Assembly (NCBI GenBank): GCA_902614235.1
Contig: CACMKG010000001.1
Location: forward strand, 69,969-133,968
Direction of reading: 5' to 3'
DNA from: an uncultured SAR86 cluster bacterium
GTDB taxonomy: Bacteria > Pseudomonadota > Gammaproteobacteria > Magnimaribacterales > AG-339-G14
Length of the DNA stretch: 64,000 bases
Made by a program: the position numbers and the translations under genes. Below are positions 42,855-47,485 of the stretch, in pieces (positions within the stretch are counted from its first letter, which is position 1; every line of letters starts with the position of its first letter). Below the pieces are notes generated by a model, which searched no databases, was not told the origin of the DNA, and saw only the letters and a list, made by a program, of their open reading frames with translations.

Positions 42855-43652
42855 TTATTTTTGTATCTTTAAAGATACTTCTCCAGAAGTTACTTTATGC
42901 TTAAAGTTATCAACAAGTAAATTCAATGAACCATCTTCATTGACATCAAGAGCAATACAATCAGATGATGAGAAATTCGATACCAAAACTTTTTTATTTT
43001 TCAATATATTGCGTTTATCAAAGTCTTTTTTAAATGCCTTAAAACCTTTTTCTAAAAAATAATTCAAATTATTTGAAATTTCTGAAATTATTTTTGATAT
43101 TAATATATTTCTATCTATCTCTAGAAAAGGCTTCTCAATGTGTAGAGAGGTCCATTCTTGATTAATAAACTCATTGGTTTTCATAAAAATATTAAGTCCA
43201 ATACCAATTACTATTGATAACTTTTTATTCACTATCTTTGTTTCGATCAAAATTCCTCCAAATTTTTTATTTTTGAGATACAGATCATTGGGCCATTTTA
43301 TTTTGGCCTTAATTTTATAAAGATCCTCTAAAGCATTACATATCATAAGAGCGATAAGAAGACTAAACCCATCTAGTTCTGATATTTCTCTATTTAAAAG
43401 TGTTCCAATTGATAAATATATATTTTTCTTTTTAGGACTTTCCCAAACTTTTCCTGATCTTCCTTTTCCTTTCGTTTGCATTTCAGCAATGCAAATATTC
43501 AATTCATTAATGACTTGTTTTTTATTTAATAAATACGAATTAGTTGAGTCGATCTGGTTGAAAATTTCTACATTTACTTTTATTTTTTTATCAATATTCA
43601 AATAGGAGAGAATATTTTCTCTATTTAGGTTCTTTTGATTGACATCTTTCAT
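42855..43652 (-). CDS. birA: Biotin--protein ligase, catalytic form
   Basis: The protein (265 aa from the ATG; a TTG three codons earlier is possible) has EIFNQIDSTNSYL, the biotin/AMP loop KGKGRSGKVWES, IKWPNDLYL and GGILIE of BirA. It attaches biotin to acetyl-CoA carboxylase carrier protein. The N-terminal winged helix of E. coli BirA is absent, so it cannot act as the bio repressor. Its start region overlaps the promoter of the divergent tRNA-Tyr. Confidence 0.93.
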   Translation of the reverse strand: MKDVNQKNLNRENILSYLNIDKKIKVNVEIFNQIDSTNSYLLNKKQVINELNICIAEMQTKGKGRSGKVWESPKKKNIYLSIGTLLNREISELDGFSLLIALMICNALEDLYKIKAKIKWPNDLYLKNKKFGGILIETKIVNKKLSIVIGIGLNIFMKTNEFINQEWTSLHIEKPFLEIDRNILISKIISEISNNLNYFLEKGFKAFKKDFDKRNILKNKKVLVSNFSSSDCIALDVNEDGSLNLLVDNFKHKVTSGEVSLKIQK

Positions 43653-43667
43653 TGGTAGCAAGAGAAT
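43639..43667 (+). promoter_or_regulatory. Sigma-70 promoter for tRNA-Tyr
   Basis: Perfect TTGACA (43639-43644), 17-nt spacer, GAGAAT (43662-43667), then a GC-rich CCTCCC stretch before the tRNA at 43681. The predicted start is about 7 nt upstream of the tRNA. The -35 lies over the first codons of birA on the other strand. Confidence 0.6.
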
Positions 43668-43680
43668 ACTCCTCCCGATA

Positions 43681-43764
43681 GGAGGGGTTGGGGAGCGGTC
43701 AAACCCAGCTGACTGTAAATCAGCCGCTTCGGCTTCGCAGGTTCGAATCCTGCCCCCTCCACCA
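43681..43764 (+). tRNA. tRNA-Tyr (anticodon GUA)
   Basis: An 84-nt class II tRNA with a long variable arm (GCTTCGGC segment), acceptor GGAGGGG/CCCCTCC, anticodon loop CTGTAAA (GTA at 43715-43717), T-loop TTCGAAT and encoded CCA. It corresponds to tyrU, which in E. coli sits before glyT, thrT and tufB. No tRNA-Gly is found in the 151 bp that separate it from the following tRNA-Thr. Confidence 0.97.
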
Positions 43765-43915: not shown

Positions 43916-43991
<76 letters not shown>

Positions 43992-44031: not shown

Positions 44032-45225
44032 ATGTCTAAGGAAAAATTTGAAAGAACGAAACCACATTTAAATGTGGGTACTATTGGCCACGTAGATCAC
44101 GGAAAAACTACGCTGACTGCAGCTTTGACGAAAGTTTGTGCTGAAGCTTATGGATCTGGAGAAGCAGTGGCATTTGATGGTATTGATAATGCTCCAGAAG
44201 AAAGAGAAAGAGGAATAACAATTGCAACTTCTCACGTCGAATATGACTCTCCTGCAAGACATTATGCGCATGTCGATTGTCCAGGACACGCGGATTATAT
44301 TAAAAATATGATTACGGGTGCAGCTCAAATGGATGGAGCAATTCTGGTTGTAAATTGTGCAGATGGGCCTATGCCGCAAACTAGAGAACATATACTTTTA
44401 GCTAGACAGGTTGGAGTGCCTTTCATAGTTGTTTACCTTAATAAAGCCGACCAAGTTGATGATGAAGAATTAATCATGCTCGTTGAAGAAGAAATCAGAG
44501 AATTACTAACGGAATATGATTTTCCTGGAGCAGATACACCAGTTATAGTTGGTTCAGCGCTTAAAGCTTTGGAAGGAGATACATCCGATCACGGAGTAGA
44601 ATCTGTAAAAAAATTGGTTGAATCTATTGATTCGTATATACCAGAGCCAACCAGAGAAACCGATAAACCTTTTTTAATGCCAATTGAAGATATTTTTTCT
44701 ATTCAAGGTAGAGGAACAGTTGTAACTGGAAGAATTGAAAGAGGAATGGTAAACGTTAATGATGAAATGGAAATTGTTGGAATTAAAGACACTGAAAAAA
44801 CTGTTTGCACAGGTGTTGAGATGTTTAGGAAACTTCTGGACCAAGGAAGAGCAGGAGAAAATGTCGGAGTACTTTTAAGAGGAACTAAAAGAGAGGATGT
44901 AGAAAGAGGTCAAGTTCTTTCTGCTCCGGGCTCTATAAAACCACATACAAAATTTGAAGCTCAGGTATATGTGTTGAGTAAAGAAGAAGGAGGAAGACAC
45001 ACCCCTTTCTTCAAAGGTTATAGACCTCAGTTCTATGTCAGAACTACTGATGTTACTGGAGAAGTAACGCTTCCAGATGGAGTAGAGATGGTAATGCCAG
45101 GCGACGATATTGCAGTGACAGTAGAATTAATTTCACCTGTAGCTATGGAAGATGGCATGAAATTTGCCATCAGAGAGGGTGGAAGAACAGTTGGAGCTGG
45201 AGTAGTTTCAAAAATTATAGAGTAG
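44032..45225 (+). CDS. tuf: Elongation factor Tu
   Basis: The protein (397 aa) has G1 [10 protein letters not shown], the switch block [21 protein letters not shown] (G3) and NKADQVDD (G4), then domains 2 and 3 with the TDVTGEV segment. It delivers aminoacyl-tRNA to the ribosome. An AGAGGAAG ribosome site precedes the ATG. It is the only tuf in the window; the usual tufA position after fusA is taken by another gene. Its TAG stop shares its last two bases with tRNA-Trp. Confidence 0.99.
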
Positions 45226-45299
45226 GCCAGTAGCTCAATTGGTAGAGCGGCGGTCTCCAAAACCGCAGGTTGGGGGTTCGATTCCCTCCTGGCCTGCCA
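45224..45299 (+). tRNA. tRNA-Trp (anticodon CCA), overlapping the tuf stop codon
   Basis: A 76-nt cloverleaf: acceptor AGGCCAG/CTGGCCT with A1-U72, D-stem GCTC/GAGC, anticodon stem GCGGT/ACCGC with loop CTCCAAA, T-stem GGGGG/CCCTC, discriminator G and encoded CCA. A1 and G2 are the A and G of the tuf TAG stop. E. coli tRNA-Trp also starts with A1 and has G73, which supports this 5' end. RNase P cleavage would remove the stop codon from the tuf message. Confidence 0.97.
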
Positions 45300-45318: not shown

Positions 45319-45687
45319 ATGGCACAACAAAGTTCAAAAACATTCAATATGCAAAGTAAGGTTCTTTGGGTTTTGGCGTTGGGTTTAATATTTTTGGCTG
45401 TTTGGGCTAACTCTTTTTATAGTTATGTGGGTCTACTATACAGAGTGATAGGCGTCATACTTGTTTTGTCTGCTTCACTAGCAATTCTAAGATACACTGA
45501 ATTTGGGAACCAAGCTTACGTTTTAATCACCCAATCATTTGTTGAGGTGAGAAAAGTCGTTTGGCCAAACAGAACCGAAACGACTCAAACAACTTTCATT
45601 GTAGCAGCAGCAGTTATTGCTGCTTCATTGATTTTATGGGGCTTGGATTCGTTATTTTCATTTTTAATGAAAGCAATTATAGGATAA
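45319..45687 (+). CDS. secE: Preprotein translocase subunit SecE
   Basis: I start at the ATG with GAAGGA 7 nt upstream, 20 bp after tRNA-Trp. The protein (122 aa) has three hydrophobic helices (about 13-33, 38-55 and 90-115) and the conserved SecE segment VEVRKVVWPNRTETTQTT before the last helix, as in gammaproteobacterial three-helix SecE. It clamps SecY in the SecYEG channel. It is followed 3 bp later by nusG. Confidence 0.96.
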   Translation: MAQQSSKTFNMQSKVLWVLALGLIFLAVWANSFYSYVGLLYRVIGVILVLSASLAILRYTEFGNQAYVLITQSFVEVRKVVWPNRTETTQTTFIVAAAVIAASLILWGLDSLFSFLMKAIIG

Positions 45688-45690
45688 TAG

Positions 45691-46224
45691 ATGTCTAAAT
45701 CTTGGTATGTAGTTAATTCTTATTCTGGCTATGAAAACAAAGCCAAAGAGCAGCTCTTAGAGAGAATTGAAAGAGAAAATCTTCATGAATTCTTTGGAGG
45801 CATTGAAGTCCCAACTCAAACAATTACAGAAATGAAAGCAGGAAAAGAAAAAGTTACTGAAAAAAAGTTCTTCCCCGGCTACGTGCTTGTTCAAATGGAA
45901 ATGAATGATGAAACTTGGCACTTGGTTAAAGAAACACCTAGAGTTTTAGGCTTTATTGGAGGAACTAAAAATAATCCTAAGCCTATTTCTGAAACTGAGG
46001 CTAATAAAATACTTCAACAGCAAGAAGAAGGAATTCAGCCTAGTTCTCAAATAACAGCTTTTGAACCAGGTGAAATGATTAGAGTCATAGATGGTCCATT
46101 TAATGATTTCAGTGGCGTTGTTGAGGAGATAGATCAGGAAAAAAGTAAGGTCAAAGTTGCAGTAATGATTTTCGGACGATCAACTCCAGTAGAATTGGAT
46201 TTTACTCAAATTGAGAGAAGTTAA
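45691..46224 (+). CDS. nusG: Transcription termination/antitermination factor NusG
   Basis: The protein (177 aa) begins [17 protein letters not shown] and has an NGN domain (1-115) and a KOW domain (about 125-175, [20 protein letters not shown]). NusG binds RNA polymerase and couples it to Rho or to ribosomes through S10. The stop and the rplK start overlap by one base (TAATG). Confidence 0.98.
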
Positions 46225-47313: not shown

Positions 47314-47340
47314 GGATGGTGTATTGATAGGTTTAAAAAG

Positions 47341-47485
47341 ATTTTTGGGCTATTGCGATTCTATTGCAATTGTCGAAGACCGTAGGTGTTTAAATATTAA
47401 ACTTAATTTCCTACGCAGATGGTTCTTAGCACAAACTTCGGTTTAGCTAGGGTTTTTTATTTCTCAAATATAGAGAGATTAATAA
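47341..47485 (+). promoter_or_regulatory. rplJ leader (L10-type autoregulatory RNA)
   Basis: The 172-bp gap between rplA and rplJ contains a long-range stem CGTAGG (47381-47386) / CCTACG (47410-47415), extended by an AAGACC/GGTTCTT pairing, as expected for the leader to which L10-(L12)4 binds. The AT-rich internal loop GTGTTTAAATATTAAAC is the hairpin cap. No gene lies here. Leader identity comes from position and fold; kink-turn detail cannot be confirmed by eye. Confidence 0.65.
47427..47458 (+). terminator. UUCG hairpin with T-run, possible attenuator before rplJ
   Basis: TAGC, AC, AAAC, the tetraloop TTCG, GTTT, A, GCTA, then GGG and TTTTTT: a tetraloop stem of eight pairs with a small internal mismatch, followed by a U-run 28 bases before rplJ. 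This is the architecture of an intrinsic terminator and could act as an attenuator within the L10 leader. Confidence 0.55.

Follow-up and report, generated by a model that had tools for sequence, protein, structure and literature searches.

The stop codon of tuf overlaps the tRNA-Trp gene in SAR86 bacteria and part of SAR11, probably through genome streamlining

In an uncultured SAR86 cluster bacterium, the gene for elongation factor Tu (tuf) ends in a TAG stop codon whose last two bases are also the first two nucleotides of the tRNA-Trp gene that follows on the same strand. The overlap is present in every readable junction of the bacterium's own family, in part of a second family of the order and in a clade of SAR11. 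We judge, with a probability of roughly 0.6, that it is a product of general streamlining in which the transcript is translated first and the tRNA matured late, tolerated by the cell rather than serving as a special switch.

Results

The tuf/tRNA-Trp junction

Within the window, that is, the whole stretch of 64,000 nt that was analysed, the EF-Tu frame runs from 44032 to 45225 on the plus strand (397 aa), and the sequence at its 3' end reads AAA ATT ATA GAG TAG GCC AGT, with the stop TAG at 45223–45225. The identity of the protein is firm, given the Pfam domains GTP_EFTU, D2 and D3 and a TIGR00485 score of 725 bits. The tRNA-Trp, with anticodon CCA and an encoded 3' CCA, occupies positions 45224–45299 of the same strand, its 5' end being placed at 45224 by both ARAGORN and Rfam (RF00005, 72.6 bits). 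The 5' strand of its acceptor stem, AGGCCAG (45224–45230), pairs fully with CTGGCCT (45289–45295), which is followed by G73 and the CCA, up to position 45299. The AG at 45224–45225 constitutes at once bases 2 and 3 of the tuf stop and nucleotides 1 and 2 of the tRNA, so that a genuine coding gene and a genuine tRNA gene, both on the plus strand, overlap at the stop codon of the former. A previous sequence-only reading of this DNA had proposed the two-base overlap, as well as the acceptor pairing and the A1/G73 end of the tRNA, and frame, sequence and tRNA predictions bear out both. The junction pattern was matched once in the window and in none of 100 shuffles. In the genome to which the window belongs (about 90% complete), one match to the tuf region was found, and a single tRNA-Trp was present among the 27 tRNAs detected.

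The gene order around the junction, all on the plus strand, is tRNA-Tyr, tRNA-Thr, tuf, tRNA-Trp, secE, nusG, rplK. The tRNA-Tyr(GTA) lies at 43681–43764 and the tRNA-Thr(GGT), just upstream of tuf, at 43916–43991, both detected by ARAGORN and Rfam. Downstream, secE (45319–45687; Pfam SecE, 59.4 bits) starts 19 nt past the tRNA-Trp, followed by nusG (45691–46224; Pfam NusG, 103.1 bits) and rplK, encoding L11 (46224–46655; Pfam Ribosomal_L11). A promoter-like sequence, TTGACA-17-GAGAAT, was found by consensus scan just 5' of tRNA-Tyr (43639–43667, plus strand), although such matches were overall not above those in shuffles; tRNA-Tyr(GTA) is probably part of the same transcription unit as tuf.

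Conservation in SAR86 and wider distribution

The sequence-only reading had proposed that absence of the overlap from close relatives would count against it. Sixty-one genomes of the order, that of the window included, were searched; 55 gave some match, and the junction region could be read in 53 and parsed in 52. In the bacterium's own family (f1; 37 genomes searched, seven without a readable junction), the 2-nt overlap with TAG was present in 30 of 30 readable junctions, and in family f2 the identical overlap was found in three of eight genomes, belonging to genera g5, g12 and g13, so the idea was not refuted. The other five f2 genomes, all of genus g8, carry a tandem TAG-TAG whose first stop does not touch the tRNA, the original one being retained in frame after it. 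In family f3 all eight genomes have TAA and a gap of 59–76 nt between tuf and tRNA-Trp, and in family f4 the gap is 37–45 nt in the six of eight that were measurable (five with TAA and one with TAG). A hairpin-like sequence, recognised by eye, occurs in the f3 spacer after the TAA (L040–L043, L045, L046, L050, L052) and may be a tuf message end or a processing site.

To judge from these sequences, the tuf/tRNA-Trp overlap is old in the lineage. Chance as its source was rejected, since it is conserved across relatives, and so was an assembly or sequencing error, as different genomes from different sources agree, with tuf-to-secE DNA only about 75% identical.

A scan of 84,980 species genomes for the exact pattern gave 46 loci, of which 26 were titled SAR86, 15 Pelagibacteraceae, four Gammaproteobacteria and one Rhodospirillales. 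ARAGORN and the reading frame confirmed the 2-nt overlap with TAG in 46/46, one tuf (that of the Rhodospirillales) being cut by a contig edge. The scan required exact spacing after a GxG motif and the TAGYTCANNNGGTAG D arm, leaving out overlaps of 1 or 10 nt, so that there are at least 46 such loci, and the genomes scanned may leave out records of the window's own genome. The Rhodospirillales match, the sole one outside small-genome groups, comes from a metagenome-assembled genome of about 3.7 Mb (L092, 1–98), where the 2-nt overlap sits at the contig edge and may reflect a binning error.

Bacterial mRNA-tRNA operons such as tuf-tRNA-Trp-secE are common, and they have the gene order seen here. 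Among 369 Gammaproteobacteria, tRNA-Trp lay at most about 52 nt from tuf in 16, and only two of these, both of the SAR86 order, showed the overlap; for the remaining 14, the gap was 17–47 nt in the 13 that were measured, the other being unparsable. In Pelagibacteraceae, 109 of 147 sampled genomes were readable: five had the overlap and 104 a gap of +5 to +22 nt, with none between -1 and +4. These 109 values were derived from match lengths, and 20 re-measured from the sequence all agreed.

A tuf tree of 83 rows grouped the f1 and f2 sequences of SAR86 in one clade (support 100/99), beside the spaced f3 and f4 and other gammaproteobacteria; the SAR11 rows with the overlap formed a clade of their own (99/92), nested among SAR11 rows with spaced genes. 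Of the titled Pelagibacteraceae loci the tree took in 13 of 15, and of the other gammaproteobacterial loci 6 of 14; six SAR86 rows were left out for lack of a completely parsed frame (L006, L040, L042, L045, L046, L050), and the tree was also built without L039, L051 and L053. Three changes of the overlap state are needed on it (3–3 in the bootstraps). These may correspond to one gain and two losses; we prefer a reading of the tree in which there would have been two gains, in SAR86 and in SAR11, plus the relaxation in g8, because spaced relatives surround both overlap clades.

Overlaps of other coding genes with tRNAs

In a complete relative of the same order (G008; 1,194,046 bp), 22 of the 35 tRNAs have the end of a same-strand ORF at most 300 nt upstream, and five of these 22 pairs overlap: galU/tRNA-Leu (by 1 nt), a carboxyltransferase gene/tRNA-Pro (10), a P450 gene/tRNA-Val (2), ispE/tRNA-Gln (10) and tuf/tRNA-Trp (2). 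Three of 18 pairs overlap in the window's genome (tuf by 2 nt, ispE by 10, the carboxyltransferase gene by 10), the stops of IspE, within tRNA-Gln, and of the carboxyltransferase, within tRNA-Pro, both lying at U8-A9-G10. In a SAR11 genome (G426), three of 13 pairs do so: tuf by 2 nt, recJ/tRNA-Glu by 22 and an FkbM methyltransferase gene/tRNA-Ser by 1. The deepest of these, at L230 around 1501–1522, takes RecJ 22 nt into tRNA-Glu, where it ends at the D-loop TAG; the C-terminus of this RecJ extends about 15 residues beyond the RecJ profile. The expected Pfam domains were present in seven overlap proteins, and with NCBIfam, IspE, RecJ, EF-Tu and FkbM scored above cut-off and GalU slightly below its own. 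Overlap is not restricted to functionally matched gene-tRNA pairs, unrelated genes overlapping tRNAs too. With other pairs overlapping likewise, we did not retain a function specific to tuf.

Two of these overlaps were followed in relatives. For the ispE test, the search pattern located tRNA-Gln in 14 of 30 genomes: among 11 further f1 loci the 10-nt overlap was present in ten, and the gap was +3 in three of three f3 loci. At the eleventh f1 locus (L237, G011), ispE enters tRNA-Gln in a different frame and stops at a TAA at tRNA nucleotides 19–21, the tRNA there catching a frame change. tRNA-Pro was located in 11 of 30 genomes, with overlap in six of the 11 loci (genera g1 and g2); in the four g3 loci another ORF ends directly 5' of the tRNA, and the single g4 locus has a gap of 30.

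Two control genomes were treated in the same manner. G041, of family f3 in the same order and about 1.2 Mb in size, showed overlap in none of 23 pairs (30 of its 34 tRNAs examined), which implies that small size by itself is not enough to bring about overlaps. In 800 kb of a gammaproteobacterium with 64% GC, one of 11 pairs overlaps, by 13 nt; the ORF involved has no Pfam or NCBIfam match and is probably spurious.

Among same-strand pairs of coding genes in G008, 251 of 751 or 293 of 776 overlap, depending on the start codons allowed (33–38%); the ORFs came from a crude longest-ORF script, so that start positions and these rates are rough. The rate for coding gene-tRNA pairs in this genome (5/22) does not exceed that between coding genes, and spacer loss consequently explains the origin of the overlaps without any special benefit.

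The stop codon was TAG in all 11 overlaps of G008, the window's genome and the SAR11 genome; as background, TAG terminates 166 of 1124 ORFs in G008. We attribute this to the tRNA sequence, which offers TAG: one ends at nucleotide 10 in 21 of 35 tRNAs, and a stop is met within 25 nt in 45 of 105 tRNA frames, versus 26.5 ± 3.8 for shuffled tRNAs. A tRNA gene that follows a coding gene would in this way be ready as a backstop, and the gene's own stop could be lost at the small cost of a few added residues.

Escape mutations and constraint

From a last tuf codon of GAG, GAA or CAA, as in overlapping SAR86 sequences, or AAA, as in SAR11, one base change gives a stop at the cost of one residue. Such a one-step escape, a single substitution in the last codon, is available in 30 of 31 overlapping SAR86 sequences and in 14 of 14 from SAR11; it was used by 0 of the 31 and by none of the 14. 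The tandem stop of g8 (five rows, one clade) is the one relief seen. That the escapes are unused argues for an order in which translation comes first and tRNA release late; it could also mean that the C-terminal residue of EF-Tu is important or that the overlap brings some benefit.

Over the final 10 codons of tuf, synonymous variation was 0.33, compared with 0.44 overall, and 6% of windows along the gene were as low. The value at the 3' end is a weak hint of some constraint, although variation is low in the first 20 codons too.

Transcription, tRNA maturation and rescue

A scan with a sigma70-like consensus, SAR86 promoters not being characterised here, gave no promoter-like match on the plus strand between 44764 and 45393, and the promoter-like matches of the region totalled 10, versus 11.8 ± 4.1 in shuffles. 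No terminator-like match was found by consensus scan on the plus strand between 43400 and 45602. tuf and tRNA-Trp are therefore likely to be carried on a common transcript, as nothing promoter- or terminator-like lies on this strand between the last 460 nt of tuf and the tRNA. A separate promoter for the tRNA, the alternative named in the sequence-only reading, found no match in this interval either, which favours one transcript.

By the logic of the sequence, RNase P cutting before 45224, as that reading had it, would leave a tuf message whose final base is the U of the stop codon. Such a cut takes bases 2 and 3 of the stop away from tuf; ispE and the carboxyltransferase gene, cut before A1 of their tRNAs, would lose the stop together with the two codons preceding it. 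Further full-length translation and a mature tRNA consequently require different times or different molecules. The predicted probability of the tRNA-Trp acceptor stem was about 0.1 when no leader was included, 0.97 when 20 or 40 nt of tuf preceded the tRNA and 0.41 with 80 nt; none of our conclusions draws on these values.

A class A RNase P RNA was found in G008 (308 bits), and tmRNA scored above cut-off in 59 of the 61 relatives, the window's own genome included. Alphaproteobacterial tmRNA has a permuted, two-piece form. With the ordinary tmRNA model, four genomes with overlap loci gave no match above cut-off, a result that is uninformative on absence.

Discussion

The reading we favour starts from the loss of the spacer that separates a coding gene from the tRNA gene downstream, which would proceed until the stop of the coding gene itself is gone and the tRNA provides one in its place. 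In tuf, a single T before A1-G2 of tRNA-Trp would make the TAG; elsewhere, the stop would be the U8-A9-G10 of the tRNA. The common transcript would be translated first, and a ribosome that has reached the stop would cover the acceptor stem on its 5' side; once translation is over or the 5' part has decayed, the stable tRNA would fold and RNase P would free it from the 3' remnant. One transcript would in this way serve for many rounds of EF-Tu synthesis and yield one tRNA-Trp, which fits the fact that a cell needs far more EF-Tu than tRNA-Trp. Early cleavage would give non-stop messages, rare enough for tmRNA to clear. Cotranscription, the order of these events and the low cost of the overlap are what we infer from the arrangement of the genes. 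As a counterpoint to streamlining, the overlap also occurs in the Rhodospirillales genome mentioned above, which is not small.

A regulatory coupling, in which termination on tuf and maturation by RNase P would compete on each transcript and the supply of tRNA-Trp would sense EF-Tu translation, is decidedly improbable. Its two outcomes are indeed mutually exclusive on one molecule, the overlap has been kept through f1 and most f2 genera as well as in a separate SAR11 clade, a single tRNA-Trp was found in G000 and G008, and the somewhat reduced synonymous variation near the end of tuf would suit it. However, the overlaps of ispE with tRNA-Gln, the carboxyltransferase gene with tRNA-Pro, the P450 gene with tRNA-Val, galU with tRNA-Leu, recJ with tRNA-Glu and the FkbM methyltransferase gene with tRNA-Ser have no common logic, genus g8 has relaxed the overlap to a tandem stop, and two sister families are without it. 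The link between tRNA-Trp supply and EF-Tu translation suggested by the sequence-only reading is thus unsupported, unrelated genes overlapping their tRNAs as well and some of them more deeply (10 and 22 nt). The same low variation in the last tuf codons could instead reflect a promoter within tuf from which tRNA-Trp would mainly be made, leaving the overlap almost without consequence; this is rather unlikely, as the consensus scan, weak evidence in itself, gave no sigma70-like match there and a total no higher than in shuffles, and any read-through tuf transcript would still need the stop inside the tRNA.

Frequent non-stop cleavage, with the cell paying by constant tmRNA rescue of EF-Tu, appears highly improbable. 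An uncleaved tuf message gives no tRNA-Trp, and tmRNA was detected in nearly all the relatives, but it is near universal and its presence says little. Moreover, selection on so highly expressed a gene should have used the one-step escapes, which none of the 31 SAR86 sequences has done, the sole relief being the g8 tandem stop. The heavy load on tmRNA that had been proposed from the sequence accordingly agrees poorly with how long the overlap has persisted and with its unused escapes. We also put forward, tentatively and as an unlikely possibility, that in SAR86 and part of SAR11 the overlapping transcript is a one-way molecule with two phases, message first and tRNA precursor later, in which the ribosome at the tRNA-borne stop would keep the tRNA unfolded and RNase P would act only after translation. 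If this were true, the amount of tRNA-Trp produced would be set by how long the tuf message lasts, and tRNA supply would read out message turnover with no feedback from a dedicated regulator.

Streamlining of this kind, our preferred explanation, has known counterparts. Stop-start overlaps between coding genes (ATGA, TAATG) in compact bacterial genomes likewise involve spacer loss until the neighbours share bases; there, one uncut message can serve both genes, whereas here the second gene encodes a structured RNA that RNase P excises, and when it is made, that molecule loses the stop. Where cleavage leaves a mitochondrial stop codon incomplete, polyadenylation completes it; to our knowledge, bacteria do not complete cleaved stops in that way. 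One account of animal mitochondria describes tRNAs that abut messages in compact genomes, their excision defining the message ends, and tRNA-tRNA overlaps of 1–6 nt that are repaired by editing (PMC4394434). The abutting tRNAs of that account are similar to those described here, but in our case the tRNA contains part or all of the stop codon. Among open-licence papers, represented mostly by titles and the beginnings of abstracts, no bacterial report of tRNA-shared stop codons was found, and we do not claim a first report.

In SAR86 and SAR11, abundant ocean bacteria both, compaction has here gone so far that what seem to be the sole genes for EF-Tu and tRNA-Trp can no longer both be expressed in full from a single RNA molecule. 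The overlap makes testable the order of translation and processing on a mixed mRNA-tRNA transcript. Annotation pipelines that forbid overlaps between coding and tRNA genes may, by inference, clip real C-termini.

Other RNA features were noted in passing. In the window, the spacer between the rplA and rplJ frames (47314–47485) contains stretches that look self-complementary by eye and could be an rplJ leader. The relative G008 has an IMES-5 RNA and a glutamine riboswitch, at L138 9930–10077 and L135 18946–19082.
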